This document shows positions 33,684-48,585 of a stretch of 64,000 nucleotides of DNA, piece after piece. The stretch is from NCBI RefSeq assembly GCF_000403395.2, contig NZ_KE159674.1:112702-176701 (forward strand), in the 5' to 3' direction. The first letter of the stretch is position 1. The number at the start of each line of letters is the position of its first letter. The position numbers were made by a program, and so were the translations under genes. The DNA comes from Anaerotruncus sp. G3(2012). GTDB lineage: Bacteria; Bacillota; Clostridia; Oscillospirales; Ruminococcaceae. The notes below the pieces were generated by a model, which worked only from the letters and a program-made list of their open reading frames with translations, was not told the origin of the DNA and ran no database searches.

Positions 33684-34439
33684 ATGATACCATATAAAAC
33701 CTATGCCGTTGTAGGCGGGGACCTGCGTCAGGCTCACATTGCGAATCTGCTCGCTGCCCAGGGCAAGACGGTCTGCGCGCTGCTGCTCGAACAGAATACG
33801 ACGGTCGATCCTGCCCTGTTTCGGACCGGGCCTGTGGAAGCCATCCTCCACGACTGTGATGTGGTGATCTTTCCGCTGCCGCTTTCGACCGATGAAAAAA
33901 CGGTTCATGCACCATTCTCCAATCAGAAGCTCTTGCTGGAAGACTGTTTTTCTGCCCTCAGGCCAGATGCACAGGTATTTGCGGGAAAGATCAGCAGTGC
34001 GGCGTCAGAGCTGGCGGACCGACACGGAATAACACTCTGCGATTACCTAGAACGGGAAGAACTGGCGGTCAAAAATGCGGTCATTACCGCGGAGGGTGCG
34101 CTTGCGATCGCGCTGGAAGAGCTGCCGGTTTCGATATCGGGGCTGAACTGCCTGATTACAGGGCATGGGCGGATTGCGCGGGCGCTGATCCGGATTCTTC
34201 GGGGGATGGGCGCACAGGTAACGGCTGCGGCGCGAAAGCAGGGGGACATTGCGGAAATCGAGGCGGAAGGGTGTCGGGCGGTACATATCAACGCGCTTCC
34301 CCGTGAGATCGGAAAGTCTGGACTGATTTTGAACACTGTCCCGGCGCATATTCTCGGGCGGGAGGCGCTTGCCAATATGAAGCCGGATGCCCTGTTGATC
34401 GACCTTGCTTCAAAGCCGGGCGGGGCTGGCTTCGGATAG
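33684..34439 (+). CDS. dpaA: Dipicolinate synthase subunit A, 5' segment of split gene
   Basis: DpaA and DpaB make dipicolinic acid from dihydrodipicolinate in the mother cell; it is the main solute of the spore core. This frame gives MIPYKTYAVVGGDLRQAHIA, the SpoVFA-type N-terminus, and runs through the Rossmann block LITGHGRIARALIRILRGMG to LIDLASKPGG. There the conserved sequence stops: after GGGG at 34422-34425 the frame reads four foreign codons and ends at 34439 (251 residues). The missing C-terminus (VDLEAAAELQRKTIWALSLP...) lies 13.4 kb away at 47867-48007. Joining at GGGG gives 293 residues, the normal family length. Confidence 0.93.
   Translation: MIPYKTYAVVGGDLRQAHIANLLAAQGKTVCALLLEQNTTVDPALFRTGPVEAILHDCDVVIFPLPLSTDEKTVHAPFSNQKLLLEDCFSALRPDAQVFAGKISSAASELADRHGITLCDYLEREELAVKNAVITAEGALAIALEELPVSISGLNCLITGHGRIARALIRILRGMGAQVTAAARKQGDIAEIEAEGCRAVHINALPREIGKSGLILNTVPAHILGREALANMKPDALLIDLASKPGGAGFG
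34413..34429. other. Left attachment site of the dpaA intervening element
   Basis: AAGCC-GGGC-GGGG-CTGG. The right site at 47855-47871 reads AAGCC-ACGG-GGGG-TGGA. The shared GGGG (34422-34425 and 47864-47867) is where joining restores the dpaA frame. Confidence 0.8.
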
Positions 34440-34465
34440 GGGCGGATTCCGTCGGATTTTATGGG

Positions 34466-34494
34466 TTGATCAGGAAGGAATTTTCTGCTATCAT
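34466..34494 (+). promoter_or_regulatory. Promoter of methyltransferase operon in the element
   Basis: TTGATC (34466-34471), 17 bases, TATCAT (34489-34494). An inverted repeat TTGTAGC/GCTACAA lies just downstream. Confidence 0.6.
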
Positions 34495-34626
34495 GAAGCT
34501 TGTAGCGAGGAGATGCAGCCGGCTACAACCAGCAGACCTGCATGGTTATGAATCAGGTAAAGCGTGCTTGTATGCTTTTGTCCGCCGTTCAAAAACAACT
34601 GTTTGATGTATACAGGAGGTGGTTCA

Positions 34627-34779
34627 ATGGATCAGGCATATCTGGATTTGAAAGCATGGTTGGAGCAGACCAGGGACGAGCCTCTGGAAGGGATGGACAC
34701 ATTTTTTGACCTGCGTATCGACGAATACGAGGCGCATATGTTGCCGTGGCAGACGAATAAGATTCTTGTCATATCCTGA
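34627..34779 (+). pseudogene. N-terminal fragment of SAM-dependent methyltransferase, split by nested element
   Basis: AGGAGGTGG precedes the ATG. The first 42 codons (MDQAYLDLKAWLEQTRDEPL to EAHMLPWQ) are the N-terminal part of a class I methyltransferase. From 34753 the frame reads into the nested element and stops at 34779. The remainder of the enzyme is at 44035-44607, in phase: joining after TGGCAG gives 232 residues. Confidence 0.88.
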
Positions 34780-34888
34780 AACCTCTTGAAAGTATTGATA
34801 TTCCGGGCCTTGCAGGTGTTTTGCGACATTTTCTCCTGCTCATTCTCTTGGCATATCCCGGCATAAAATAGCACAGCTTTGACCCCGA

Positions 34889-34911
34889 AAGTAGTAGAAA
34901 AGGTAGTAAAT
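34889..34911 (+). repeat. Left-end integrase arm-type repeats
   Basis: AAGTAGTAGAA (34889-34899) and AGGTAGTAAAT (34901-34911), in tandem. They resemble the DR2 sites bound by the N-terminal domain of Tn916 integrase and match the pair at the right end (43941-43962). Confidence 0.75.
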
Positions 34912-34933
34912 CAAGGGTGCTTATCCCGTTTTA

Positions 34934-36133
34934 CTACCCGCCGCTGGCAACCCGTTCCAGCTCCGCCTGCGCGTCCTCAAAGCCCAGGTGGGTGTAGGTG
35001 TTCAGCGTGACGCCAATATCCGAGTGACCCATAAGGTATTGCAGCGTCTTGGGGTTCATACCGCTCTTTGCCATGTTGGAACAGAATGTGTGCCTGCAAA
35101 CGTGCGGGGTGACTTTGGGCATCTGCACCTTGTAGATGCTGTTGTACTTCTGACAGATGTGCTTGAAGTAATGCTCCCAGTGAAGTGCCACCATCGGCTT
35201 GCCGTCCTTATCCAAATACAGAAAGCCGCACCTGCCGCCGATCATTGGCTCGGTTTTGGGTTTCGGCCTGTTGACGATGATGCGCTGGAAACACTGGTAC
35301 ACATCGTCCGTCATGGGGATTTCCCGCGTCCCGCTGGAGGTTTTCGTGTCCTCAATGATGTACTCCATGTTCCGCTTGCGCTGAAGCTGGTGATTGACAC
35401 TGATTTTGCGGTTTTTCATGTCCAGGTCAGCCAGGGTCAGCCCTACAAACTCCGAAATGCGAAGTCCCGTCTTGAACAGGATATAAATGCCGTCGTAGTA
35501 CCGGGAAAAGTGCTTGTCACCCTTTACAAATTCCAGAAACGCCCGTTCCTGTTTCCTTGTGATCGCTTCCCTTGTCACGCTGTCGTTGACAACGACGGTG
35601 GCAAGCTGAAACTCAAACGGATTTTTGCGTATCAAATCATCGTCCACGGCCATCTGAAACGCAGGCCGGACAACGCCCCGAATGGAGTGGATGGAGCTGT
35701 ACCCCCTGCCGTCCTGCTGTAACTTGATAAGCCAGCACTTGGCGTCGGACAGCTTCACCCGGTCAATGCGCTGTCTGCCGAAGTCCTCTTTCTTGATGAT
35801 ATTGAGGACAAAGTTATAGTTGGCCTCGGTGTTGTGCCGGACGCCAGTTTTCTGGGAGAGGTACTTTTTCACCAAATCCAGAACGGTCATCTCCCCGCCG
35901 CGAGGAATAATGGCGTCCTCAATGTCCCGCCGGATTTGCTTCTCCTTTTCCCGCAGGGAAAGCCCGTCCCGTTTGCCCTGGGGTGTGCTGTCCGTGGCTT
36001 CCAGCTTCCAACTGTAAACAAACTGGGGCTTGCCTGTGGCATCGATGTATTTGTACGCATATCGTCCGTCCTTGCGTTGGCTCTCTCCGCTGCGAAGAAT
36101 GCGGTTCTTGCTGTCACGTCGCTTTTCGCTCAC
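34934..36133 (-). CDS. int: Tyrosine integrase of the Tn916/Tn1549 type
   Basis: Cuts and joins the element ends for excision and integration. The 399 residues have an N-terminal arm-binding domain (1-75), a core-binding domain (about 80-180) and the catalytic domain with Arg225, Lys264, His344, Arg347, His370 and nucleophile Tyr380, almost the same numbering as Tn916 Int. The start MSEKRRDSKNRILRSGESQ is typical of Tn1549-like elements. It reads outward to the left end, 182 bases from the junction, as in this family. Intact, so excision looks possible. Confidence 0.96.
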   Translation of the reverse strand: MSEKRRDSKNRILRSGESQRKDGRYAYKYIDATGKPQFVYSWKLEATDSTPQGKRDGLSLREKEKQIRRDIEDAIIPRGGEMTVLDLVKKYLSQKTGVRHNTEANYNFVLNIIKKEDFGRQRIDRVKLSDAKCWLIKLQQDGRGYSSIHSIRGVVRPAFQMAVDDDLIRKNPFEFQLATVVVNDSVTREAITRKQERAFLEFVKGDKHFSRYYDGIYILFKTGLRISEFVGLTLADLDMKNRKISVNHQLQRKRNMEYIIEDTKTSSGTREIPMTDDVYQCFQRIIVNRPKPKTEPMIGGRCGFLYLDKDGKPMVALHWEHYFKHICQKYNSIYKVQMPKVTPHVCRHTFCSNMAKSGMNPKTLQYLMGHSDIGVTLNTYTHLGFEDAQAELERVASGG

Positions 36134-36253
36134 GTCTATGCTCCTTTCTGTGAAAAGAGCCTCGGCACGATATAATCATATTATACCATAACCGAGGCCC
36201 GATTTCCATATAAATCTGAATGTCTTACAGGAACTTTTCGTAAGGTACGGCGC

Positions 36254-36460
36254 TTAAATCGACGATAGCTTATCCAAAAACTGCTCAAACCGCTGGCGTT
36301 TGATTAGAATTTTTACGCCGTTCTGAATGACAAAACCAGCGTCCAGGTTGCTGTTTACCAGCTTTCGCAGTTTCTTTTCTCCAATTCCGAAATAGCGGGA
36401 GGCTTCCTCAATGGTGAGGCAGAATTTGTCCTTTACCGAAATGCCGATTTCCTCGGCCAT
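36254..36460 (-). CDS. xis: Excisionase of Tn916 family
   Basis: A 68-residue DNA-bending protein with the winged-helix pattern LTIEEASRYFGIGEKKLRKLV followed by a basic C-terminal half (VKILIKRQRFEQFLDKL), typical of Tn916/Tn1549 Xis. It pairs with Int to promote excision. It lies 120 bases upstream of int in the same direction. Start ATG 36460. Confidence 0.93.
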   Translation of the reverse strand: MAEEIGISVKDKFCLTIEEASRYFGIGEKKLRKLVNSNLDAGFVIQNGVKILIKRQRFEQFLDKLSSI

Positions 36461-36549
36461 AGTTCACCAGCCTTTCTTTGAAATGCCCAGGTCCACAGGC
36501 GGGAGGAACAGGGAAAGGGTAAGCTGTCCCCCCCAACCGGGGCCGGTTA

Positions 36550-36786
36550 TCAGTTCATGCCGAGAATGGCGCGGATGAGTTTGTTTTCCAGACGGCTTTT
36601 CATGTACTCGTCCAGGCAGGCGTGGGGACAGCCGTTTTCGTCGTAGACCGTCCGGGTACAGAGCTTGTTTATGTAGCCCTCGTAGTAGCGTAAGACCTGT
36701 TCCACGGCATCGGCATCCCCGGCGCGGGCCGCATCGCTCACCGCCAGCGGCAGCAGTTCACGGCCTTTGTAATTACGGTGCTTCAT
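36550..36786 (-). CDS. Small helix-turn-helix protein (Tn916 Orf8-like position)
   Basis: A 78-residue basic protein (MKHRNYKGRELLPLAVSDAA, ending ENKLIRAILGMN) of the kind that precedes the sigma-like factor in Tn916/Tn1549 regulatory modules. The adjacent sigma-factor gene ends 4 bases before its start, so the two are coupled. Probably a transcriptional regulator or partner of the sigma factor; direct function unknown. Confidence 0.78.
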   Translation of the reverse strand: MKHRNYKGRELLPLAVSDAARAGDADAVEQVLRYYEGYINKLCTRTVYDENGCPHACLDEYMKSRLENKLIRAILGMN

Positions 36787-36790
36787 GGCG

Positions 36791-37216
36791 CTAACCTCCT
36801 TTCCTCGCTGTCAGTTTCGTCCGCAGGACATTCAGCGATTTTGTTCTGCGCCGCTGGACGGCACTCCGGGACAAGCCAAGGGCCTCGCCGATCTCGCTGT
36901 CCGTCAAATCCAGAACCAAGCGCAAAATCAAAATACTTTGCTCCTGCTCCGGCAGACTGGCAAAGGCGTCGGCCACCCGTTCATTGCTGATCGGCAGGTC
37001 ATAGCCGCAGTACGAGAATACATAGCTGTCGCTGGGGTAATCGTCCGCCGAACACAGCTTGTCCATCGCCGTTTGGGGCAGACGCTCCAAGGACATTTCC
37101 CGGTTAGCCCGCCGCTTCATTTCCCGGATGTAGTCGATTGCCTCATGCTTCAAAACGGTCTTGCAAAAGGCGTCAAACCTGCACCGTTCGCCATAGTCGC
37201 GGGGGTTGGTTTCCAT
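36791..37216 (-). CDS. Sigma-70-like factor of the element (Tn916 Orf7-like)
   Basis: A 141-residue protein with a short region-2-like part (FCKTVLKHEAIDYIREMKRR) and a clear region 4 helix-turn-helix (LILRLVLDLTDSEIGEALGL then SRSAVQRRRTKSLNVLR). In Tn916-like elements this small sigma factor activates excision and transfer genes. The start is ATG 37216, preceded by GGGGGTGAGAAG; the frame continues upstream without support. Genes it would normally activate in a conjugative relative are missing here, apart from xis and int. Confidence 0.88.
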   Translation of the reverse strand: METNPRDYGERCRFDAFCKTVLKHEAIDYIREMKRRANREMSLERLPQTAMDKLCSADDYPSDSYVFSYCGYDLPISNERVADAFASLPEQEQSILILRLVLDLTDSEIGEALGLSRSAVQRRRTKSLNVLRTKLTARKGG

Positions 37217-37638
37217 CTTCTCACCCCCTTTCCGTTGGGGATGGCGGTGGTACTTTCCCTTTCCGCTAACAGAGCGTTCAGCGGCACAGGTTTTGCGCGC
37301 AAAACCGCTTTCCGCAGAGATAAAAGTGAAGAAAAATTTTCGGGCCGCAGAAAACGACAAAAATCGCCCGGCAGGTCAGAAACCCGCCGGGCAAAAGATG
37401 AACAATAATGTATAGAACCTACACTGTATAGTACGTACTCGTGGTCGCAATAGTCCCCGGTGGAGGCTGGGATTTTTTTGACAACTGCTTTCCTAGTTGT
37501 CTACAGTGTAATACCCACATAGCGGCTACCTCCCAAAGCCGCCAAAATCACAGCGGCGGCACTTTTTACCAAAGTACCGCCGCCATGTGGAACCTATATA
37601 AAGCCAATATGGAACCTGTGTGAAACGGGAATTTTTTC
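37217..37638. other. Non-coding control region upstream of the element sigma factor
   Basis: No gene seen. TACACTGTA (37419-37427) and TACAGTGTA (37502-37510) are inverted copies about 75 bases apart. Between them are the palindrome AGTACGTACT and GACAACT-N8-AGTTGTC. A hairpin GGCGG...CCGCC lies at 37555-37584. At 37586-37625 are three half-sites of the response-regulator box (TGTGGAA, TATGGAA, TGTGAAA) with 22- and 11-base spacing. Confidence 0.6.
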
Positions 37639-37902
37639 TTACTCCCTCGGTGTGACTACAATGCCGTCCGCATTATCCGGGTCGCGGAAGCTGTAAGTAA
37701 AGCCGTCAGATAAGGTTACATTGTCGGAATTGTCCTCGGTGTCCAGCCCCGGTTCGGTGTCGATCTCAATGTCTGTATCATCAATTTCCACGGAGTTCCC
37801 CACGTTTGTGTCCTGATCGCTTCCGTCTTTCAGATTGGTACAGCCGGTGAACAGCAAGAAGCAGACCAGCATACACGCCAAAATAGCAGTAATTTTCTTC
37901 AT
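37639..37902 (-). CDS. Small acidic lipoprotein, last gene of ABC operon
   Basis: An 87-residue lipoprotein precursor: [21 protein letters not shown] is signal plus lipobox (Cys about 21), followed by a very acidic Asp/Glu/Asn-rich segment and a short beta-like end ([11 protein letters not shown]). Start ATG 37902, which shares its A with the ABC ATPase stop, so the genes are tightly coupled. Possibly an accessory or immunity-type protein for the ABC transporter; no family recognised. Confidence 0.7.
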
Positions 37903-38537
37903 CACATTTCCCTCTCTTTCAAATGTCCCCGTTTGATTTCCAGCACCACATCCGCCTGCTTTGCCACCTCGCCAGAGTGCGTCACGACCACCACGCACTT
38001 ACCGAACGCATGGGCGCTCTCTTTCAAAATCGCTGTGATTTCCTCGGCGGTGTCAGCATCCAGGTTCCCGGTCGGCTCGTCCGCCAGAATGACCGGGGCA
38101 TCGGAGGCCAACGCCCGCGCAATCGCCACCCGCTGCTGTTGTCCGCCGGACAGTTTCAGCACATTCCGGGTGATCTCGTCCTGCTCCAGCCCCAGCCGCT
38201 CCAAAATAGGGGCGGCGTCCAGCTTGGCGGTGAGCCGTACATTTTCAACAGGCGTCATGTAGTCGATCAGGTTATAACTTTGGAAAATCAGCGAGATATG
38301 GTTCCTGCGGTGATGTTCCAGGCCCTTTGCCGCAATATCCTCGCCGTCAAACAGGACGCTGCCCTGTGTCGGCACATCCAGCCCGCCCAGCAGGGACAGC
38401 AGCGTGGTCTTGCCCGACCCGGACGGGCCGAGGATGGCATACATCTTCCCGGTTTCCAGTGACCCGCTGACGTTCTGCAAAACCGCCTTACCCTTTTCAT
38501 AGGCGTAAGAAACATTTTTCAATTCCAATGTAGGCAT
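37902..38537 (-). CDS. ABC transporter ATP-binding protein (MacB/LolD type)
   Basis: A 211-residue ATPase: Walker [11 protein letters not shown] (near residue 38), Q-loop [11 protein letters not shown], signature [15 protein letters not shown], Walker [13 protein letters not shown], and H-loop VVTHS. This class works with FtsX-type permeases to move peptides, lipoproteins or antibiotics, or to signal their presence. It lies 13 bases after the permease gene. Cargo of the nested element. Confidence 0.94.
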
Positions 38538-38550
38538 GATAGTCCCTCCT

Positions 38551-39984
38551 TCAGCTCATTTTTGACAGGATTTCACGGGGTTTCAGCCGCATGACCGTGA
38601 TGGACGATGTACTGACGGCCACAATGACAATGGCAAGGCCGATCAGATAGAGTTGGGCGAGGTTGTCCAGTCCAACGGACACCTGAATGCCGTTCTCCGT
38701 AGGCAGGGGCTTTTGAAGCAGATTATCCGCGCCCACATCAACCGCGGCAGCAGCTACAACATCGTTATCATCCTCCGGCTCCGTCTGCATACTCTGCTCC
38801 AACAGGTGGTTGCCGATTTGTCCCGCTATGGCGTTGCTGGTGAAGTAGGACAGGCCAAAGGCGAGGACGGCGATCAGCAGCACCTCAATCAAATACTGGC
38901 CGATGATGGCCGATTTTCTGATACCAACGGACAAGAACACGCCGATTTCGTGAATACGTGTCTTTGTCCAAAGGGTCAATATCAAGGCCAGAATGATGGC
39001 GCTGACAACGATAATCACCACCAGAAGGGTCACGACCAATTCATTCAGCGTAGCCAGCGGAGCGGCGGCGTTTTCGTAAGTTTCATTGTCCATCTCCACA
39101 GTAAAGGCTTTCCAGTCGATACCCGGCAGGGCCTTGACTTCGGCTACGACCCGCGCCATGTCCTGCGGGTCGTCTATGGTGACATGGAGCGCGGAAAATC
39201 CATAGTTGATTTCTTCGCCGTCAAACTCTTTCGAGGACTGCAAATCCACAAACACTCGGTTCTGGATTTTGTCATAGGTGGTGACAGTTTCCCCAAACTG
39301 TTCCACCGCATGAGGGGTAAACAGTCCAATAATTTGTATCCTGATTTCCAGCCCGGTAAAGCCCTGATCTTCCACGCTGTAACTGTGGGCGGTGAGATAA
39401 TCCCCGATCTTCAACTCGTTTCTTTCCGCCAAGTCCTGGCTGATGATTGCCACATGGGTATCGTCAGTGGTAATATGCCGTCCCTCTGCCAGCGTCAGTG
39501 TGCCGGTGGTGAAAAGTTCATCATCTTCCGTGTTGCAGACGCCCAGGGCCTTTGTATATCCCTGATATTTTGCGTCGGTTGAGATTGTCCCGGGAAACAG
39601 GGAAAGCCCATCAAACGGCAAAAGATTGTCCTGCCTTGCGCTGCAATACTTTACGCCGGGAACGCCTTTGATGGCGGCAATGTTCTCCGGGGTAAATTGT
39701 ACGGTGGAATACATAATAAAGCCGTTGCTTGCCTTGCCGGTTTCCTCGTCGTACTCCTCTTTGACAGTTTCTTTGACTACATAGGGGCTGTTGTTCCAAT
39801 CTACGAAAACGTCAAATTTGCCGCCCAGGCTCTGCCGCAGGTCGAGTTGCGTGGCCTCCGACGCTTTCCAGATGGAAAGCCCCGTCAGGACAAGGGTTGC
39901 CATAATCAGAAGGATGGCGAACAGGAGAATGGTTTTCCCCCGTTTTCGTGTGACGTATAGAAACGCCCTTTTGAAAATACTCAT
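38551..39984 (-). CDS. FtsX-like ABC permease
   Basis: A 477-residue permease with four membrane segments: one near residues 18-38, three near the C-terminus (about 330, 375 and 450), and a large extracellular domain between the first and second. Such MacB-type permeases use a mechanical cycle to expel or sense substrates from the outer face. The insert before the last segment is rich in Glu, Asp and Ala (EPEDDNDVVAAAAVDVGAD). Start ATG 39984 with GGAGG at 8 bases. A response-regulator box and -10 lie just upstream (40031-40063). Confidence 0.9.
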   Translation of the reverse strand: MSIFKRAFLYVTRKRGKTILLFAILLIMATLVLTGLSIWKASEATQLDLRQSLGGKFDVFVDWNNSPYVVKETVKEEYDEETGKASNGFIMYSTVQFTPENIAAIKGVPGVKYCSARQDNLLPFDGLSLFPGTISTDAKYQGYTKALGVCNTEDDELFTTGTLTLAEGRHITTDDTHVAIISQDLAERNELKIGDYLTAHSYSVEDQGFTGLEIRIQIIGLFTPHAVEQFGETVTTYDKIQNRVFVDLQSSKEFDGEEINYGFSALHVTIDDPQDMARVVAEVKALPGIDWKAFTVEMDNETYENAAAPLATLNELVVTLLVVIIVVSAIILALILTLWTKTRIHEIGVFLSVGIRKSAIIGQYLIEVLLIAVLAFGLSYFTSNAIAGQIGNHLLEQSMQTEPEDDNDVVAAAAVDVGADNLLQKPLPTENGIQVSVGLDNLAQLYLIGLAIVIVAVSTSSITVMRLKPREILSKMS

Positions 39985-40030
39985 GTTTGATACCTCCATA
40001 TTGTTGTGCTGTTCTTCTGAACGCACCCGT

Positions 40031-40063
40031 AGAATAGCATCCCAATGTGGAATGGGTATGAAA
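40031..40063 (-). promoter_or_regulatory. Response-regulator box and -10 of the ABC operon
   Basis: On the minus strand, TTTCATA-N4-TTCCACA (11-bp direct repeat) is followed at a fixed distance by TATTCT. The same arrangement occurs at 41902-41934 upstream of the response-regulator gene. Confidence 0.75.
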
Positions 40064-40120
40064 CGGAGATGGAATTGTGGTGGAAATGAAAAAACTCCCC
40101 GGCTGGAGAGTTTTTCACGC

Positions 40121-41218
40121 TTATAGATGGATGGTAAATCGCATCCCCAACGGGGATTTCATCGGTGCAAAGGCATAGAAAATATTCATAGAGGTCAAGA
40201 TCGTATCCACGATATAGAGGCCCAGGCCATTGCCGCCGCTCTCCCGGCTTCGGGAGAAGTCTGGACGATAGAACGGTTCAAACAGGCGGCGAATTTCACG
40301 ATCAGGGATAGGGTCACATTCGTTTTCAATGATTAGGCAGTTTTCGTCCATATAGACAGAAACGGATTTTCCGGCTTCCGTATAAGCAACAGCATTTGCA
40401 AGAACATTCGATACCGCCTTGCTAAATCGGCCAGCCGGAAGTGTCGCGGGAAATTGTTCCGGCAGATCAAGAGAGAAGATGATTTGATGCGCTGCCGCAA
40501 TCATCTGATACGGCGCACACAGTTCTGCCATCAGCTCCGCTATGTCAATCAGTTTCGCTGGTTCATCGGTAGTGTTCAGCTTGGAGGTTTCCAAAATTTC
40601 ATGTACCATCCCGGAAAGCTGCTCCACCATTTCTTTGCACTCTGGGAGATAAGTAGCATAATCCTGATATTTCCCCACGCCCAAAATCATATTTTCCAGG
40701 GTGGCGTTCAGTGCGGTCACGGGTGTTTTCAGTTCATGGGACGCCGCCCGCAGGAAGTCCACCTTGGCCCGCTCCATATCACGCACAGCGTCTTTTTCCC
40801 GTTCTAAATGTTCAATGGTAGACAGCAGATTAGAGTACAGATCATTGACGTTCTGCGCCAGTGTACCAATTTCATCCTTTGTATGGATAGGGCAGCTTGC
40901 TCCGTGGTCTAATTTCATCATCTGCTCGGTTGACGCAGAAATCTTCTTGATAGGGTCGGCAATCGCTTTGGAAAACAGGAGGGAACAGACAACGGAAATC
41001 AGCAGGGAACAGATTAACGAGATAGGCAGGGCTTTTTCTACTGCCTCGGTCACAAACTGCTCCTGCCGGATGCTGACAACAACATCATCTTGGGTACTCA
41101 ATGCAAGCTGCATCTGTGGGGCAAGCAGATAGATCAGCCCATGCGTGACAACAACGACAAATAACATGATGCTCATGGTATAGAGAAATATCTTCGGAAA
41201 CAATTTTAAGCGTTTCAT
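40121..41218 (-). CDS. Sensor histidine kinase
   Basis: A 365-residue membrane kinase: two membrane segments (about 10-33 and 64-83) around a very short outer loop of 30 residues, a HAMP linker, the phospho-acceptor His161 in AASHELKTPVTAL, and a C-terminal ATPase domain with NVLANAVAYTE and GGNGLGLYIV. The short sensor loop is the intramembrane-sensing type often paired with ABC transporters that report antimicrobial peptides. It overlaps the response-regulator gene by 4 bases. Confidence 0.93.
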   Translation of the reverse strand: MKRLKLFPKIFLYTMSIMLFVVVVTHGLIYLLAPQMQLALSTQDDVVVSIRQEQFVTEAVEKALPISLICSLLISVVCSLLFSKAIADPIKKISASTEQMMKLDHGASCPIHTKDEIGTLAQNVNDLYSNLLSTIEHLEREKDAVRDMERAKVDFLRAASHELKTPVTALNATLENMILGVGKYQDYATYLPECKEMVEQLSGMVHEILETSKLNTTDEPAKLIDIAELMAELCAPYQMIAAAHQIIFSLDLPEQFPATLPAGRFSKAVSNVLANAVAYTEAGKSVSVYMDENCLIIENECDPIPDREIRRLFEPFYRPDFSRSRESGGNGLGLYIVDTILTSMNIFYAFAPMKSPLGMRFTIHL

Positions 41219-41880
41219 GGCTGCACCTCATATTTATAGCCGATACCCTTGACTGTTACGATACAGTCAAGCCGCAGTTTCTTCCGCAGATTTTTGATAT
41301 AAGTGTCCACGGTTCGGTCGATGATCGGATAGTCAGCGCCCCACAGTTCGTCCAAAATCTGCGAACGGGTCAGTACCAGCCCCCTATGCTCCACCAGCAG
41401 CCGGAGCAAATCAATTTCCTTTGGCATGATGTCGATTTTCCCGGCGCGGTCACTGGCGGTATAGCCGGAGAAATCAACGGTCACATCACCAAAGGTTATC
41501 GTTTGGGGTAACGGGGCCTGCCCACTCCGCCGCAGGAGGGCGGTGATCCGCCTCCCCAGCAATACCATAGAAAAGGGCTTTGTCATGTAATCGTCCGCCT
41601 GTTCATCAAAACTCATGACCTGGGTATATTCGTCCTCAAGAGCCGTAAGCATCAGAATGGGCGTTGCGCTTGTCCGCCGTATCTCATGCAGAATGGACAG
41701 GCCGCTGACATGGGGTAGCATAATATCCAGCACAACAAGGTCGATGCTGTTCTCACGGAAAAGCTGTAACGCCTCCACACCGTCGTAAGCTGGGATAACC
41801 TTGTGGCCTGTGGGCTTTAGGTATTCACAAATCGCATCGTTGGTCTTGCGGTCGTCCTCAACAATCAGTAACGTTGCCAT
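41215..41880 (-). CDS. OmpR/PhoB family response regulator
   Basis: A 221-residue regulator: receiver domain with acidic Asp9/Asp10, phosphorylation site Asp52 (VVLDIMLPHVSG) and Lys in YMTKPFS; then a winged-helix DNA-binding domain (DIMPKEIDLLRLLVEHRG and RTVDTYIKNLRKKL). Start ATG 41880 after AAAGGAGG. OmpR-type proteins bind direct repeats with 11-bp period, which are found ahead of this gene and ahead of the permease gene. It is first in the regulator-kinase operon. Confidence 0.94.
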   Translation of the reverse strand: MATLLIVEDDRKTNDAICEYLKPTGHKVIPAYDGVEALQLFRENSIDLVVLDIMLPHVSGLSILHEIRRTSATPILMLTALEDEYTQVMSFDEQADDYMTKPFSMVLLGRRITALLRRSGQAPLPQTITFGDVTVDFSGYTASDRAGKIDIMPKEIDLLRLLVEHRGLVLTRSQILDELWGADYPIIDRTVDTYIKNLRKKLRLDCIVTVKGIGYKYEVQP

Positions 41881-41901
41881 TAACTCGCCTCCTTTGGAAA
41901 T

Positions 41902-41934
41902 AGTGTAACACGGGAATGTGGAATGGATATGAAA
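41902..41934 (-). promoter_or_regulatory. Response-regulator box and -10 of its own operon
   Basis: On the minus strand, TTTCATA-N4-TTCCACA, then TACACT exactly as far downstream as TATTCT in the 40031-40063 copy. This suggests autoregulation. Confidence 0.75.
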
Positions 41935-42101
41935 TGATAGTAAACTTTGTTTCTCCCGTTGTAAAATTAAGGGGAACGCTTTCAGAGCAAGCATAGGGAG
42001 TGTAGCCACACTCCCGAAAAACGTCCAAATCCGCCCTTGCCGGGCCGTGTCCGTTTTTGCTTGTTGGGATAGTCCCAAACCCTTTATGGTTTCCTAATCA
42101 C

Positions 42102-42213
42102 TTGACGTATTTATGAAAGTAGAGTAACATATTAGTAGTTGGCTGTAGTTGCCCAGAGTTGCACAAAGTTCGCCAATAGATTAGACTCACGGCTTCTATC
42201 GTAGTCAGACTAC
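42102..42213 (+). promoter_or_regulatory. Promoter and repeat-rich leader of the DUF6414-like gene
   Basis: TTGACG (42102-42107), 17 bases, TAACAT (42125-42130). Just downstream AGTT recurs every 10 bases at 42137, 42147, 42157 and 42167 (units such as AGTTGGCTGT and AGTTGCCCAG). A palindrome GTAGTC-A-GACTAC lies at 42201-42213. Both are candidate regulator sites. Confidence 0.65.
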
Positions 42214-42274
42214 CGAAATACTTATATTGCGGCGTTGATACGATAAATCAAATAGCGACAGAAAAGGAGAAGAA

Positions 42275-43171
42275 ATGAAACAATTTATTTATCTTGATAC
42301 AGACATTGTTAATTCAATCATTGCCCAAAAAGATAAAGGGCTTGTGCTGGAAACTGCCAGCGAACATGAAGATACCAGTGGCGATGAACGTGGAAAAACT
42401 GGAAGTCTAACGTTTAACGGCTCCGCAAGTGGCGGGATATGGAAGTTTGCGCAAGCACAGGCAGAATTAAGTGGAACTGGAGAAGTATCGTTCAATAAGC
42501 ATTCTCAAACTGTATTAAAAGAAATCGCAACCAAAACCTTGCACGACGCTGCATTTGATATTGCTTACAAGCAAATACGTGGGGAATATGACTTGAGTTT
42601 AGAAAATGCAGACTTGGGTTCTTATGTTGAACTAACCCAAGCGTTCGAGTTTGTTGATTTGGTGTATATTGAGGGGCTCTTTTCGAAAGGTTCTTTTATA
42701 GATTTCCTAAAAAAATCGGAGCGAGAAAAAATTGAACAAGAATTAAATGAAAGTGTTTCGAGCGAATTGAATCGTGGACAACAGAGAAAAGGCGGTGTAG
42801 ATGTAAAAAAAGAAATAAAAAAGCTGCTTGATGCTAATGACAAACAATATGATGATATAGCGGAAATCATCAAAGCTATTCGACAAATGATTCCTTATGA
42901 TCGGATGCTTGTTTCGCATGATGGGTATCTGATTCCGTTGGAAGATAAGTACTTTAGGGATAATCCGCAAACAATGGGGTTCAAACATGGTGGGTATATC
43001 ACTTGTGTAGGCTATATCACCAATGTAATCGGTGAGACAAGTGACGCTACAAGTGAAAATATTTTTTCACAATTACAAACGTTAGTAAATCAGGCCTTAG
43101 TATCTATGTTACCCACAAAGGAAAAGGATTTATTTGTCGTTCATCCCATTGCGATTTATTACGGTCAATAA
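42275..43171 (+). CDS. DUF6414-like protein, element cargo
   Basis: A 298-residue protein whose N-terminus FIYLDTDIVNSIIAQKDKGL resembles the DUF6414 family. No catalytic motif is recognised. The middle has a charged helical region (EREKIEQELNESVSSELNRG, then VKKEIKKLLDANDKQYDD) and the end is hydrophobic (LFVVHPIAIYYG). It has no signal peptide. The DNA is clearly more AT-rich than the flanking chromosome, so it was probably acquired separately. AAAGGAGAAGAA precedes the ATG. Its position in element cargo, alone on the opposite strand with its own promoter, fits a defence or host-interaction gene, but this is inference only. Confidence 0.7.
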   Translation: MKQFIYLDTDIVNSIIAQKDKGLVLETASEHEDTSGDERGKTGSLTFNGSASGGIWKFAQAQAELSGTGEVSFNKHSQTVLKEIATKTLHDAAFDIAYKQIRGEYDLSLENADLGSYVELTQAFEFVDLVYIEGLFSKGSFIDFLKKSEREKIEQELNESVSSELNRGQQRKGGVDVKKEIKKLLDANDKQYDDIAEIIKAIRQMIPYDRMLVSHDGYLIPLEDKYFRDNPQTMGFKHGGYITCVGYITNVIGETSDATSENIFSQLQTLVNQALVSMLPTKEKDLFVVHPIAIYYGQ

Positions 43172-43940
43172 TTTCCAGTTTATATTTGAATTTTTCAGGT
43201 TACTCCTGAAAACATGGCGTACATCAAAAAATACTGGTGGAAACATAATCGGTGCATCTGTGTGCATTATCAGAGTAATGATGGAAAACAAATTTAATTG
43301 ATAGTCCCCAATTAGCCCACCAGCCTACGCATTTAGGGCCTGTTCAGCACCCTATTTTCAAGACTTCCAAGCGGCGGTCACACAGGGTGCAATACGATTT
43401 GACCTATACCCTCAAAAATGAGGTTCTAAATGCATAGAAATAGGCATGGAAACGCCAGGGCGGGAGGCCAACGCCCCGGCACTCCTGTCCCGGCTTCTGC
43501 TGGGCTGTGAAACTGTACTGTCACGCAAGAGGGCCACGGCCCTCTTGCGACACCCGCAGAAACCGTACACCCGCTTCGCGTCTGTACGCTTCCAGTGGGT
43601 CAGATAACGCCCATGATACCCCCCTGCTGCTATTTAATCTCCCTGTGTCTCGCTTCCGTTCCATTCCTTTCCGGCGGCTTTGCCGCCCGTTCCTCAACGG
43701 GAAGGGTAGCGGAAAGGATAGGAAAGGAATGGGTAATTGATAAGTCTTTACTTGATTTTATCTTTAGTTACTTATATCTATATTTTATTGTGTTGGATTT
43801 TCCGACGTCGGTTTTCCCGTTGTCGGATTATCCGACGACGGAAATGCCAACAACGGCAAAAAGGGCAAGGCACGTCTATCTGTGTCTTGCCCTTTATCGT
43901 CCATATCGTGCCGAGGCGGGTGTTATCGTCCAGACCGCAA
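43172..43940. other. Structured non-coding right part of the nested element
   Basis: I see no convincing gene. CGCAAGAGGGCC/GGCCCTCTTGCG (43524-43549) is a perfect 12-bp hairpin with a 2-base loop. CCATTCCTTTCC (43661-43672) pairs with GGAAAGGAATGG (43721-43732), enclosing two smaller hairpins (43673-43687 and 43686-43701). Near 43795-43855 the minus strand reads SDNGKTDVGKSN, a pattern like the repeats in replication initiators of this element family, broken by a stop: probably a remnant of a lost rep gene. Confidence 0.6.
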
Positions 43941-43962
43941 AAGTAGTAAACAAGTAGTACAT
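43941..43962 (+). repeat. Right-end integrase arm-type repeats
   Basis: AAGTAGTAAAC (43941-43951) and AAGTAGTACAT (43952-43962) in tandem, about 70 bases from the right junction. They match the left-end pair at 34889-34911. Confidence 0.75.
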
Positions 43963-44028
43963 TTGCGGGGGTATCTGCTGAAAGTCCAGATATATCAACC
44001 ATTTTCAAGGACAGGATGTGTACCTCCA

Positions 44029-44607
44029 TGGCAGGCACACTACCAGTGGATGGCGGAACTGCTGCCGGACGGGATCGGAACACTGCTCGATATTGGCTGT
44101 GGAAGCGGCTTGGAATTGGACACGGTCTTTCAGCGGTTCCCGTCTCTACAAGTGACGGGCATTGACCTTTCGGAAAAGATGCTCGACAGACTTGTCCAGA
44201 AGCATGGCGGGCGGGCACTGACCGTCATTCAGGAGGATTATTTTCTCCATCCGTTTGAAAGCGCGCATTTTGATGCAGCAGTTTCTTTCCAGACGCTGCA
44301 TCATTTCTCCGCAGAGAAAAAGACCCAGCTTTTTTCCAAACTGTATGGCAGTTTGAAGCCCGGCGGGGTCTATCTGGAGTGTGATTACGTCGCAAAAACG
44401 CAGGAGATCGAGACGCTGTGCGCTTCGGAGTGCGAAAGGCGGCGGCTGCGCGACGGGATTACATCCGACAGGTCTATACATTTTGACACACCCCTCACGC
44501 TCGAACATGAGATACAGTCGATGAAAGCCGCCGGTTTTGGACAGGTTGAGGTAGTGGGGTACCTGCCCGGGGATGACCATACACCAATGATCCGGGCGTT
44601 AAAATAA
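44029..44607 (+). pseudogene. C-terminal fragment of SAM-dependent methyltransferase
   Basis: From TGGCAG onward this reads WQAHYQWMAELLPDG, then the SAM-binding motif LLDIGCGSGLELD, VTGIDLSEKML, and the rest of a class I methyltransferase (190 codons after the junction). It continues the fragment at 34627-34752 in the same frame. The 5' part was cut off by insertion of the nested element. The frame is otherwise intact, so precise excision would restore a 232-residue enzyme. It is followed 11 bases later by a cysteine hydrolase gene. Confidence 0.9.
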
Positions 44608-44618
44608 GAAGGGTTAAA

Positions 44619-45152
44619 ATGGTTCTGCTCGTGGTTGACACACAGGAAATGCTTGTAACAGAAAAGATGTACCGGTGCAAAACATTTTTGGAACGTGTCA
44701 AAAAACTGATTTCCACTGCGCGGGAACAGGGGGGCGAGGTCATTTATGTCCGGCATGATGATGGGATAGAGCTGACAAGAGGTGTCCCTGGTTTTGAAAT
44801 CTCGAAAGAGGCCGCACCCATGCAGGGGGAGAAAATTTTTGACAAACGGGTCAACAGAGCCTTTAAAGGCAGTGGGTTGTTGGAATATCTGAGGGAGAAA
44901 CAGGAAAACAGCGTTATGATCGTGGGGCTACAGACCGATTACTGTATTGACGCGACGGTCAAATGTGGCTTTGAGCATGGGTTTGAGATGATCGTCCCGG
45001 CAGGCTGCAATACGACCGAGGATAATGCGTTTCTGGCCGCAGAAAAGACCTATCGATATTATAATGAAATGATGTGGAACCGGCGCTATGCACGTTGCGT
45101 GGAGCTTGGTGAGGCGGTGAAGCTTTTAGAATCCGGACGGCAGGAGCACTGA
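44619..45152 (+). CDS. Isochorismatase-family cysteine hydrolase
   Basis: A 177-residue alpha/beta hydrolase of the isochorismatase/nicotinamidase family. The catalytic triad is visible: Asp7 (LVVDTQ), Lys in IFDKRVNRAF, and Cys in GLQTDYCIDATVK. Such enzymes cleave nicotinamide, ureido compounds, maleamate or similar; the substrate is unknown. It forms an operon with the (split) methyltransferase in the dpaA intervening element. GAAGGG precedes the ATG. Confidence 0.87.
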   Translation: MVLLVVDTQEMLVTEKMYRCKTFLERVKKLISTAREQGGEVIYVRHDDGIELTRGVPGFEISKEAAPMQGEKIFDKRVNRAFKGSGLLEYLREKQENSVMIVGLQTDYCIDATVKCGFEHGFEMIVPAGCNTTEDNAFLAAEKTYRYYNEMMWNRRYARCVELGEAVKLLESGRQEH

Positions 45153-45377
45153 ACTCCTTCTGGAATACCCCCTCCCCCTCCAAAAACCGGCGGTATCCAC
45201 GGGAATCTGTAAATGCGGCAGTAAGCATGTCTGCGAATGGAAGGAAGATTCCATAGATCAGGCGGATTGTCCTGCATATATTTTGAAAATATAAAAAATA
45301 GATAGTTTTTATAAACTAAGTTGAATTTTTATATAAAAATAATACAATAAAAATGACAATCTGGTAACAAAAACCTC

Positions 45378-45406
45378 TTGAAAAATCGCTTTGCCTCGGA
45401 TATACT
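45378..45406 (+). promoter_or_regulatory. Promoter of the surface-protein gene
   Basis: TTGAAA (45378-45383), 17 bases, TATACT (45401-45406), 73 bases before the start. The remaining bases of 45153-45478 are AT-rich and show no gene. Confidence 0.75.
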
Positions 45407-45478
45407 GAGACACGTTCCAAGCGGCCCCGACGATGGGCGCTGCGGATCGAAACTTTTCTTTCAGGAGGCACCTAAACC

Positions 45479-46690
45479 ATGAAAAAAGCGATTGCGATGC
45501 TGCTTGCAGTTTCTTCTATGATGTCGATGAGCGTGGCTGCTTTTGCCGAGGATCTGTCCGATGAGTCCAGCAGCTCTTCGATTGTAAGCTCTTCCGAGAC
45601 TTCTTCGGATGAGAGTTCGTCGGACGTTTCGTCTGACAGTTCGTCCGAGGACACCTCTTCGGATGATTCCTCCAGTTCCGAGGATGAGACCCCTGCGGTA
45701 GAGCCTTCCGCATTTGTATTCAAGGCGGATGACGAAGGCAGCCTGCTCAGTGAGACGATCCTTGAGCCGGGTAAGGAGTACCGGTTCCCGGCCTATGTCG
45801 AGGTAGGCGGAAAACAGGTGGCGATCAGCGACGAGCTGCTCAAAGACTATAAGTTTACCTACACCCGGGTAAGTGCGTCGGGCGTTAAAACCTTCAAGAT
45901 CGAGGAATACAAAGGCAATTACTACCTCTTTGTTGAGGTGAAGGACACCACTCCGGCAAAACCGGTCGACGTAAAATACAACGTCAAGCTGGTGCGCAAA
46001 TCCAACAATCTTTCGGTGTTCAGCCAGGAGGTTAAGTTCTCCTACGGCTACGACGAGAGCAATGACGACTATATCAACGACCTGGACAAGGGCGACATTG
46101 TGGAGATCGACAACGACCGCCCGGTCATCACCAAGGAGCAGTTCAACAAAATTGCGAAACTCAACGACTATAAGAACGTCACCCTGGCGGGCGCCGGCTG
46201 GCAGTTCACTGTCAATGTGACCGACGAGCCGACTAAAAATATGGTATTTTCGAATGCGGGCATCAAGGAAATCCTCTCCAAGCTGCCGGATCAGGACTTC
46301 AAGTTCTTCCGGTTTGCGGGTAAGCCGTCCTTCCAAGCAACCGGCAAGGTATCCCTGGATGTTTCAGACGTTGCGGATGATTTCGCCAAGCTGTACACAT
46401 ACCGCTATGCAGATGGAAAGATGTACCGGATCAACGCGACCTTCAACGCGGAGGACAACACCCTCAATTTCCGCACCAACAAGCTGGACACTTTTGTCGT
46501 GACCGATCAGCCGATCAAAGATGGGTTCGCCGTTTCGGATGCACAGGAGAACACCTCCGGTGATTCCACCAATGCTGACAAGGAGAACCCGGGCACAGGT
46601 GCAGGCGATATGATTCATGCGGCTGTTATGGCGGGGATCGCATCCCTCGCGGCTGCGGGCGCACTGGCCGCCAAAACGAACAGAAAATAA
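45479..46690 (+). CDS. Secreted, wall-anchored protein with Ser/Asp/Glu-rich stalk
   Basis: A 403-residue surface protein. A signal peptide (about residues 1-23, ending VAAFA) is followed by a low-complexity Ser/Asp/Glu stretch (about 25-72) reminiscent of serine-aspartate repeats, a globular domain of about 270 residues without known motif, and a C-terminal sorting signal: NPGTGAGD, a hydrophobic segment and KTNRK. The NPxTG form is common for sortase substrates in gut Clostridia. AGGAGG precedes the ATG. Cargo of the dpaA intervening element. Confidence 0.8.
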   Translation: MKKAIAMLLAVSSMMSMSVAAFAEDLSDESSSSSIVSSSETSSDESSSDVSSDSSSEDTSSDDSSSSEDETPAVEPSAFVFKADDEGSLLSETILEPGKEYRFPAYVEVGGKQVAISDELLKDYKFTYTRVSASGVKTFKIEEYKGNYYLFVEVKDTTPAKPVDVKYNVKLVRKSNNLSVFSQEVKFSYGYDESNDDYINDLDKGDIVEIDNDRPVITKEQFNKIAKLNDYKNVTLAGAGWQFTVNVTDEPTKNMVFSNAGIKEILSKLPDQDFKFFRFAGKPSFQATGKVSLDVSDVADDFAKLYTYRYADGKMYRINATFNAEDNTLNFRTNKLDTFVVTDQPIKDGFAVSDAQENTSGDSTNADKENPGTGAGDMIHAAVMAGIASLAAAGALAAKTNRK

Positions 46691-46725
46691 CAGCTTGTCC
46701 GATTTTAGCGGACTGGCAGATCGGG

Positions 46726-46765
46726 GAGGCCCGGGACAGTTTCGTCCCGGACCTTCTGCTTTTTT
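46726..46765 (+). terminator. Intrinsic terminator of the surface-protein gene
   Basis: GGCCCGGGAC pairs with GTCCCGGACC (one mismatch), followed by a T run ending near 46765. Confidence 0.85.
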
Positions 46766-46881
46766 CAGCAAGGACATCCTTCCCTGCCGCATATAGTGGT
46801 GTAAAGCCGCAATGCGCCGATTTCTGCGGAATGTTTTCCGCAGGAGAGAAACATCTTGGATGACAGGGGAGGAAAAGCAGC

Positions 46882-47976
46882 GTGGATCAAAGAGGAACAG
46901 CGCTCTATCTAAGACTTTCGCGGGAGGATGGCGAACGGCAGATGGAATCGCAGAGTATCGCCAACCAGAGGGCATATCTGCTTCGCTATGCACAGGAGCA
47001 TGGTTTCGTGGTTACGGGAATTTTTGTGGACGATGGATGGAGCGGCACCAGTTTTGAGCGGCCTGCATTTCAGCAGATGGTGCAGGAAATCGAAGCAGGG
47101 CGGGTTGGTACAGTGATTACCAAGGATCTCTCCCGCCTGGGAAGGGACTATATCCAGACCGGGCATTTTCTCGAGCGATACTTTCCAGAACATGGGGTAC
47201 GGTATATTGCGGTCAATGACCGGATCGACACCGGAGAACAGGAGGGGAACGACCTTGCACCGTTCCTTTCGGTTGTCAACGATATGTATGCGAGAGACAT
47301 TTCCAAAAAGGTACGGGCAGCGCTCTCAGTTCGAAAAGAGACGGGACAGTTCATTGGTTCTGTGCCGCCGTTTGGCTACCAGAAAGACCCGGAGCAGCGC
47401 GGGAGGCTCCGGATTAATCCGCAGGCAGCACCGGTGGTGCGGATGATCTATCGGGCTTATCTGCGGACAGGGCAGATCAGCCAGGTGGTACGAGCGCTCA
47501 ACGCCAGGCAGATTCCTCCGCCATCTGGAAGAAAAAAGGACTCATCCGTAGGATGGAACGATGTGACGGTGAGGCGTATTTTAAGCAATCCAACCTATGC
47601 TGGTCATCTCACCCAGAACCGCACGCGGAAGATCAGCCACAAGGTGGGAAAAAAGGTCTGCCTGCCACCAGAGGAATGGGTGACAGTTCCAAACACACAT
47701 GCGCCGATCGTACCGCAGGAGCTGTTTGACCAGGTGCAGGCCATATTGAAAATGCATGGGAGGTCTCGTAAGGAAAGAAGTCAACAGTTGCCACAGGGTC
47801 AGCCAGTAGAGGTCCAGTTTCATTCTTGCACACCACTCCCGCCAACAATATTCGAAGCCACGGGGGGTGGATCTCGAAGCTGCGGCGGAACTTCAGAGAA
47901 AGACCATCTGGGCGCTTTCTCTACCAGGAAAAACAGCGCCGATTTCCGCAGGGGAGATCATCCTGTCGACGATTGA
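46882..47976 (+). CDS. Serine recombinase at edge of the dpaA intervening element
   Basis: A 364-residue recombinase: resolvase domain with catalytic Ser13 (ALYLRLSRED) and TKDLSRLGRDYIQTG, then a recombinase DNA-binding domain (PPFGYQKDPEQRGRL, VRRILSNPTYAGHL, THAPIVPQELFDQVQ). It is the SpoIVCA type that removes sporulation-gene inserts. The start is GTG 46882 behind GGGGAGG. After residue about 298 the usual zinc ribbon and coiled coil are absent, and the last 36 residues are read from dpaA sequence beyond the crossover point. It may therefore be truncated, or have a C-terminus that changes on excision. Confidence 0.9.
   Translation: MDQRGTALYLRLSREDGERQMESQSIANQRAYLLRYAQEHGFVVTGIFVDDGWSGTSFERPAFQQMVQEIEAGRVGTVITKDLSRLGRDYIQTGHFLERYFPEHGVRYIAVNDRIDTGEQEGNDLAPFLSVVNDMYARDISKKVRAALSVRKETGQFIGSVPPFGYQKDPEQRGRLRINPQAAPVVRMIYRAYLRTGQISQVVRALNARQIPPPSGRKKDSSVGWNDVTVRRILSNPTYAGHLTQNRTRKISHKVGKKVCLPPEEWVTVPNTHAPIVPQELFDQVQAILKMHGRSRKERSQQLPQGQPVEVQFHSCTPLPPTIFEATGGGSRSCGGTSEKDHLGAFSTRKNSADFRRGDHPVDD
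47855..47871. other. Right attachment site of the dpaA intervening element
   Basis: AAGCC-ACGG-GGGG-TGGA, partner of 34413-34429. It lies inside the recombinase reading frame and at the first codon of the dpaA 3' segment. Confidence 0.8.
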
Positions 47977-48007
47977 CAACTGCCTGAACGAAAGGAGCGG
48001 TGTATGA
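47868..48007 (+). CDS. dpaA: Dipicolinate synthase subunit A, 3' segment of split gene
   Basis: In the frame starting with GTG at 47867 this reads VDLEAAAELQRKTIWALSLP, then GKTAPISAGEIILSTIDNCL, the C-terminus of DpaA/SpoVFA, and stops at 48005-48007 overlapping the dpaB start (ATGA). The first G of the GTG is supplied by the 5' segment after joining at GGGG. On its own it has no start region. The recombinase frame runs through part of it in another phase. Confidence 0.92.
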
Positions 48008-48585
48008 TGGGGAAAAAACGGCTCGGGTTTGCAATGACGGGTTCCTTTTGTACATGGTCATCGGTGATTCCGCAGATGGAGAAGTTGACTGAATTTTATG
48101 AGATTTATCCGATTTTTTCTCCGATCTCCTATTGCTCGGACAACCGCTTCGGTAAGGCTGCTGATTGGATCGAACGGGTAGAGGAAATCTGTGGAAGAAA
48201 AATATGGCACACTATTGAGGAAGTAGAACCAATAGGGCCTAAAAATCTGCTTGATTTGCTGTTAATTGCGCCCTGTACAGGCAACACATTGGGGAAGCTT
48301 GCCAATGGAATCAACGATACACCAGTAACGATGGCTGCGAAATCGAGTTTACGCAATGGGAATCCGCTTATCTTGGCAGTTTCAACCAATGATGCGCTTG
48401 GAGGTTCAGCACAGAACATCGGACGGCTAATGAATGTCAAGCAGGTTTATTTTGTTCCGATGGCACAGGACGACCCGAAGAACAAGCCCACTTCGGCTGT
48501 GGCTTTTTTTGACCTGATTGCCCCCACACTTTTATCAGCTGCATCTGGCGAACAGATACAGCCGGTGTGGAGACAGCGCTTGTAG
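48004..48585 (+). CDS. dpaB: Dipicolinate synthase subunit B
   Basis: A flavoprotein-fold subunit that acts with DpaA in dipicolinate synthesis in the mother cell. The 193 residues include GFAMTGSFCTW, LLLIAPCTGNTLGKLANGI and AVSTNDALGGSAQNIGRL, all typical of SpoVFB. AAAGGAG lies 6 bases before ATG 48004, which overlaps the dpaA stop by 4 bases. With dpaA interrupted, dpaB is cut off from the dpaA promoter, so its expression also depends on excision unless the element supplies a promoter. Confidence 0.95.
   Translation: MMGKKRLGFAMTGSFCTWSSVIPQMEKLTEFYEIYPIFSPISYCSDNRFGKAADWIERVEEICGRKIWHTIEEVEPIGPKNLLDLLLIAPCTGNTLGKLANGINDTPVTMAAKSSLRNGNPLILAVSTNDALGGSAQNIGRLMNVKQVYFVPMAQDDPKNKPTSAVAFFDLIAPTLLSAASGEQIQPVWRQRL

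Follow-up and report, generated by a model that had tools for sequence, protein, structure and literature searches.

In the window, by which we mean the whole 64,000-nucleotide stretch of DNA that was analysed, the open reading frame of a serine recombinase runs across its own putative attachment site and stops inside another gene, the spore gene dpaA. The question raised by this locus is whether such a recombinase is a working minimal enzyme, an enzyme switched by the state of its element, or the remnant of a truncation that has trapped the element in dpaA, the three options left by an initial annotation. The features that bear on the answer are the following (window coordinates; G005 is a genome of the same genus).

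33684-34423, forward strand: N-terminal part of dpaA (spoVFA), some 247 codons up to the att core (TIGR02853 / PRK08306)
34407-34437: attL (attB left half 34407-34421, GG core 34422-34423, attP right half 34424-34437)
34424-47865: dpaA-intervening element, 13,442 bp, or about 4.2 kb minus the inner element
34628-34752, forward strand: 5' part of a methyltransferase cargo gene that the inner element interrupts, from its match to G005
34753-44028: inner Tn916-like element, ends approximate, absent from G005
44029-44607, forward strand: 3' part of the cargo methyltransferase gene
44619-45152, forward strand: cysteine hydrolase-like cargo gene (biuret hydrolase-related), match under the family cut-off
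45479-46690, forward strand: Ser-rich surface-protein-like cargo gene, 93% identity in the G005 element (L088)
46882-47976, forward strand: serine recombinase ORF, GTG start, 364 aa
47850-47880: attR, within the recombinase frame (attP left half 47850-47863, GG core 47864-47865, attB right half 47866-47880)
47867-48007, forward strand: C-terminal part of dpaA (VDLEAAAELQRKTIWALSLPGKTAPISAGEIILSTIDNCLNERSGV followed by the stop), 98% identity to G005
48004-48585, forward strand: dpaB (spoVFB), TIGR02852 above cut-off (NCBIfam)

The N-terminal part of dpaA aligns to the spore_dpaA profile TIGR02853 up to position 245 of 287; with the end of the gene missing, its score stays under the cut-offs set for the whole protein. 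When the flanks of the element were joined in silico, IDLASKPGG was followed directly by VDLEAAAELQRKTIWALSL in an unbroken dpaA frame; precise rejoining yields a full dpaA frame in G005 and G189 as well. The limits of attL were defined by comparison with the uninterrupted dpaA of congeners and by the dyad test described below. It should be noted that GGGG is common to the left and right junctions, so that the crossover is fixed only to within these four bases; GG was taken as the two-base core (34422-34423 and 47864-47865), and the length of 13,442 bp follows from that choice. As the initial annotation had stated, the crossover GGGG lies within the recombinase gene and the frame crosses its attachment site: attR is inside the ORF, the stop codon of which falls in dpaA DNA. 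The crossover comes after recombinase codon 328, and the tail lengths given there proved correct when recomputed, with 36 residues past the crossover in the integrated state (364 aa in total) and 60 different residues in the predicted circle (388 aa). A search of IMG/VR for the exact predicted attP gave 0 matches, and no circular form was found there.

The inner Tn916-like element is separate from the serine-recombinase unit. It contains a tyrosine integrase gene (34934-36133, reverse strand), an excisionase-like gene and, by eye, a sigma-like gene, a two-component system and an ABC transporter. The cargo methyltransferase gene is broken in the window by this insertion and in G005 by a one-base frameshift. 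For the surface-protein-like gene at 45479-46690, an NCBIfam search returned no match. Upstream of the recombinase gene, 37 bp at 46762-46798 are the same in the window and in G005 despite near-saturated synonymous sites in the gene itself. They sit downstream of a terminator-like hairpin and contain CATATAGT, in which we presume a likeness to sigma-E/sigma-K sites; the block is a possible candidate for a developmental (mother-cell) promoter.

A Pfam search of the window recombinase found a Resolvase domain at residues 7-156 (PF00239, E 1e-25) and a Recombinase domain at residues 180-290 (PF07508, E 8.3e-26), and nothing else. The zinc ribbon PF13408 was not found by this search in the recombinases of the window, G005 and L097, and was present in seven others searched alongside. 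In the alignment, the conserved part stops near residue 295, leaving no room for the coiled-coil insertion; the absence of both domains after residue 298, first noticed in the initial annotation, is thus borne out. The catalytic-domain residues R11, S13, D82, R85 and R88 are invariant in all ten aligned recombinases. The AF2 model has a mean pLDDT of 82.9 and a pTM of 0.56, and the PDB structures that match it best are complexes of serine integrases, at low TM-scores over the whole chain (0.46-0.47). Residues 1-295 are conserved, residues 296-328 are weakly conserved up into attR, and residues 329-364 are translated from dpaA DNA in a different frame. In full-length relatives, the Recombinase domain is followed by the zinc ribbon, the coiled coil and a last strand, e.g. 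VEIYFRF or IEIQFKF. A sequence resembling this strand, GQPVEVxFxS (GQPVEVQFHS in the window), is retained at codons 306-315, before the crossover. The loss therefore has the look of an internal deletion rather than a simple truncation; it would span the stretch from about residue 296 to the last strand and be common to the window and G005.

The congener G005 carries the same element at the same site without the inner insertion (3,383 bp), and its recombinase has the same short frame, likewise running through attR. The initial annotation had named as its refutation a recombinase of full length in an element otherwise the same; the search for one turned up a single near-identical element, that of G005, with its short frame. 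Between the window and G005, residues 1-298 of the recombinase show an omega of 0.076 (Nei-Gojobori; dS about 1.0; 119 synonymous and 49 nonsynonymous differences), with 0.049 for residues 1-150 and 0.103 for residues 151-295; residues 296-322 are hardly conserved, GQPVEV excepted. For dpaA, omega is 0.108 in the N-terminal part and 0.012 over the 45 codons of the C-terminal part. On these sequence comparisons, strong purifying selection acts on the recombinase and on each half of dpaA. A recent deletion in the recombinase is ruled out by the short frame in G005 and the omega of 0.076. Past the crossover, the 14 differences between the two genomes are distributed 13, 1, 0 over the recombinase codon positions and 1, 0, 13 over those of dpaA, so the integrated tail follows dpaA, and the recombinase is under selection only to about the end of the Recombinase domain.

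Among the ten other genomes of the genus, dpaA is uninterrupted in seven (G002, G003, G004, G006, G007, G008 and G010), split in G005 and G009, and cut by a contig end in G001. In G005, dpaB is interrupted as well, with similar inverted ends (..TAGTACAAAAAA..) and its halves on separate contigs (L085; L029 15820-15972); given this interruption, sporulation may be impaired in G005, which is a MAG.

For 80 public loci at which the recombinase has relatives, the fetched flanks were scanned for dpaA fragments. Five contained them, namely the four closest, L088 (the G005 contig), L089, L090 and L091, plus L097; only the N-terminal half of dpaA lay inside the fetched flank of L090. A profile of the C-terminal part of dpaA matched in at least 336 of 396 genomes of the order and at least 289 of 396 of the family, with two or more matches in at least 10 genomes of the order set and at least 18 of the family set; these prevalences are lower bounds among the matches listed, and the order-level search left G146 and G246 unflagged. 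Two-match genomes not already known, together with three odd-frame cases, were re-examined (12 loci of the order set, 14 of the family set). Among them, G108, G214, G220 and G339 (four of nine) and G624 and G676 (two of 14) turned out not to be splits of the KPGG^V type.

The split at KPGG^V, with the variants KPYG in L097 and LPGG in G437, has both dpaA halves on one contig in the window, G005, G009, G344, G189, G375, G437, G501, L089, L091, L097, G146 and G246. The halves are on two contigs in G446; in G278, the N-terminal half and the recombinase were found, and the C-terminal half is absent from the 17 kb fetched. No recombinase was recognised in the G501 element or in the fetched parts of G446. 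Elements at this site range from 3.4 kb (G005) to 23.5 kb (G009); by eye, the latter (L030/L084, C7:1018971-1042505) contains type IV pilus-like genes and a gene for a very large repeat protein.

Two observations concern dpaA at large. A second split site, in the codons for LSLPGK, was seen in three genera and 11 genomes, where the elements measure about 5-9 kb (L250-L259, i.e. G588, G688, G713, G578, G753, G037, G675, G527, G635 and G668, and on two contigs G626). In some of these elements, a serine recombinase of a different kind was noticed by eye, along with a sugar ABC transporter and its LacI-type regulator. Among the matches listed, the dpaA match contains one in-frame TGA in seven genomes of family f24 (G083, G121, G148, G160, G214, G241 and G256) and a TAA in two more (G134 and G309), which may reflect recoding or sequence error.

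Thirteen recombinases were found in elements at the KPGG^V site, that of G278 next to the N-terminal half of dpaA only. Zinc ribbon and coiled coil are both missing from six of them (window, G005, L097, G146, G246 and G278, from at least two genera); three have the zinc ribbon and lack the coiled-coil segment (L091, 399 aa; G344, 417; L089, 433), and four have both (G189, 483 aa; G437, 505; G009, 540; G375, 551), the presence of the coiled coil being judged from the alignment. Only three of 89 other complete homologues are shorter than 450 aa, the 89 including L011, the full-length recombinase of the G009 dpaA element itself. The recombinases of G146, G246 and G278 (three species of a genus other than that of the window) and of L097 are 296-304 aa long and end directly after the Recombinase domain. 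They form a supported clade, in which L097 is 81% identical to G146 and the three sublineages share 59-63% identity, with 0.75-0.83 synonymous differences per site; omega is 0.12 for the closest pair, and dpaA halves lie on both sides of the element in three of the four. Partial frames (285-287 aa) searched against the profiles contained both domains, and the absence of the zinc ribbon from them rests on stop codons. With about 40% residue divergence, near-saturated synonymous sites and the same short end, the two-domain enzyme has thus been kept for long.

The six ribbon-less recombinases do not group as a single clade in the tree, and one clade is not rejected (p-AU 0.366). In a larger tree, ten dpaA recombinases are not one clade (four changes; 0% of bootstrap trees with one) and fall inside one supported clade of 16 rows (99/94), with non-dpaA recombinases, of 530 aa and others, in or near it. 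Short relatives were also seen among the matches listed: L293 (G398 C31:164401), 294 aa without zinc ribbon, where the fetched 13 kb contained no fragment of dpaA, L270 (G293), 432 aa, and L272 (G153), 377 aa. In IMG/VR, relatives of the recombinase were found at 15 loci, with at most 41% identity.

The attachment sites were analysed as dyads centred on a core consisting of the first two Gs of the GGG codon. In the window, the two arms of the predicted attP agree at 14 of the 22 positions compared (shuffle p about 0.0006), and at 10 of the 11 inner ones. Summed over 11 elements, the attP dyads gave 134 matches at 242 positions versus a shuffle mean of 69.7; the highest of 10,000 shuffles was 99, and none reached 134. 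Taken singly, the dyads of L089, L091, G344 and G375 are within chance (shuffle p 0.81, 0.11, 0.07 and 0.16); another offset scores best in L089, L091 and G375 and equally well in G344, and in G005 a single offset (+6) within +-8 scores higher. The dyads of G437 and G189, the enzymes of which have the zinc ribbon, extend 18-24 bases outward, and ATTTGGATAAGG occurs in both arms of G437 and G446, at positions 13-24. For the ribbon-less window, G005, G146, G246 and L097, inner matches are 10, 11, 8, 10 and 8 of 11 and outer matches 4, 0, 0, 1 and 1 of 10, compared with inner matches of 6, 11, 6, 8, 7, 4 and 4 and outer matches of 5, 7, 2, 10, 4, 2 and 4 for seven other elements (one-sided Mann-Whitney, inner p 0.029, outer p 0.011, for a small sample of related rows); G446, with no recombinase recognised in the parts fetched, was excluded. 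The att sites tend to be dyads centred on one GG, of which those of ribbon-less enzymes show the inner half only. In LI integrase, the Recombinase domain and the zinc ribbon jointly read a 25-bp half-site (PMC3783163), which fits shorter sites for enzymes without a ribbon.

Considering that the recombinase and both dpaA halves have been kept intact by evolution, the enzyme probably still cuts the element out at sporulation. Judging from the sequences, we consider it likely that the window encodes a working serine recombinase of about 300 residues with two domains, catalytic and Recombinase, that is, a large serine recombinase minus zinc ribbon and coiled coil, which excises the element and rebuilds dpaA. 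Of the options in the initial annotation, the minimal enzyme is the one supported, by the short form in G005, the low omega and the six ribbon-less recombinases. This enzyme would derive from a large serine recombinase by loss of both domains, and its element is lodged at one pair of dpaA codons. The recombinase would join attL and attR in the mother cell during sporulation, and the restored dpaA would make the synthesis of dipicolinic acid possible. With the loss of the coiled coil, which probably prevents attL x attR synapsis in other members of the family, a directionality factor (RDF) would perhaps be unneeded, and the att sites may be short because the Recombinase domain alone reads them; an element that needs only to exit from dpaA could dispense with coiled coil and RDF. 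The overlap of the recombinase 3' end with attR and the state-dependent tail would then be by-products of having attP at the end of the gene. In line with this mechanism, the model for LI integrase has excision blocked by mutual contact between the coiled coils on attL and attR (PMC3783163), and LI integrase without its coiled coil recombines attL and attR without RDF about as well as attB and attP, 2.2% and 1.6% (PMC10754689). The 3.4-kb element of G005 has little room beyond its three genes; frames of 30-83 codons occur in its three gaps, and by eye none is like anything known. Two findings count against the proposed excision: in vitro, deletion of the coiled coil left LI integrase at about 2% and abolished the activity of phiC31 integrase, and the zinc ribbon aids half-site binding in LI integrase.

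The weakness of integrases without coiled coil in vitro also speaks for the alternative that another recombinase of the genome excises the element in trans, the short gene being kept for some other job, e.g. as a regulator or a partner subunit. Candidates exist, since the genome of the window contains 34 Resolvase-domain matches, the window's own included. However, the next best relative by E-value, among the matches listed, has 44% identity in this genome and 42% in G005, constraint on the protein is strongest in its catalytic domain (the omega of 0.049 for residues 1-150), and the att dyads fit the missing zinc ribbon of the short form; excision in trans appears unlikely. That the element is dead, a deletion having removed the recombinase C-terminus so that dpaA is permanently lost, is more improbable still. 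The missing domains do matter in model integrases, and the cargo methyltransferase is broken in both genomes, but the selective constraint on the recombinase and on each part of dpaA and the persistence of the short form across deep divergence in a second lineage (G146, G246, G278 and L097) do not support the trapping truncation that had been proposed. A state-dependent switch, in which the change of C-terminus between integrated and circular forms would alter activity, is hardly credible even though the frame crosses attR in the window, G005 and G189 with tails that differ by state, because the circular tails are 60, 12 and 87 aa long, respectively, and agree only in their first residues, 13 of the 14 differences past the crossover are at dpaA third positions, and the other ten of the 13 recombinase frames do not enter dpaA.

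A broader proposal can be made, tentatively and with somewhat less than even confidence: in elements locked in dpaA, which needed excision only, the recombinases may have lost the coiled coil first and the zinc ribbon later, and so have become a natural class of minimal serine recombinases, RDF-independent enzymes of about 300 residues with sites of about 30 bp that would have long served sporulation in at least two genera. With this element, dpaA joins the spore genes interrupted by apparently excisable elements, and these recombinases provide a natural test of the roles of zinc ribbon and coiled coil in serine integrases. Should the two-domain enzyme excise the element alone, it would offer a pared-down natural case for work on how direction is controlled in this family, and its short sites and size of 300 residues would make it useful as a tool.

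Among known systems, an att site within the recombinase's own gene is found in the tyrosine integrases of SSV1 type, where integration splits the gene. The dpaA element is similar in that the integration state alters the recombinase reading frame, but it belongs to another recombinase family and merely has an unconstrained tail swapped. Further parallels are the skin elements of sigK, with the recombinases SpoIVCA in B. subtilis and CD1231, with the RDF CD1234, in C. difficile; CD1231 has zinc ribbon and coiled coil, and CD1234 is required for excision (PMC5025042). In both cases a mother-cell sporulation gene is split by an element with a serine recombinase inside, and the skin gene is rebuilt by attL x attR recombination. 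In contrast to skin, the target here is dpaA and not sigK, both domains are absent, and no RDF-like gene was recognised by eye in the gaps of the G005 element. No skin-like split of sigK was seen in the genome of the window, which has two near full-length sigK matches; their open frames are 235 and 252 aa long, and both score under the family cut-off.

In the coiled-coil deletion of Listeria LI/A118 integrase (PMC10754689), attL x attR recombination proceeds without RDF, as is proposed for the dpaA form. However, this is a laboratory mutant, poorly active and with its zinc ribbon kept, whereas the dpaA form is natural and has lost both domains. As to targets, the papers found name sigK, spsM, spoVFB, spoVR, gerE and yabG as sporulation genes hit by such elements, with vfbin in spoVFB (dpaB) of B. 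weihenstephanensis, gin in gerE, yin in yabG and SPbeta in spsM (PMC10747680, PMC6957869, PMC5595907). No report of an intervening element in dpaA (spoVFA) was found in the open-licence literature searched, and the terms 'dpaA' and 'spoVFA' are absent from PMC5595907 and PMC10747680, as far as their available text goes. Like vfbin, gin, yin and SPbeta, the element described here intervenes in a sporulation gene, and vfbin even hits the other subunit of the same enzyme; it differs in having dpaA as its target and in being small, and it carries a reduced recombinase. On this footing, the dpaA element is of a known kind, with a new target gene and a reduced recombinase.
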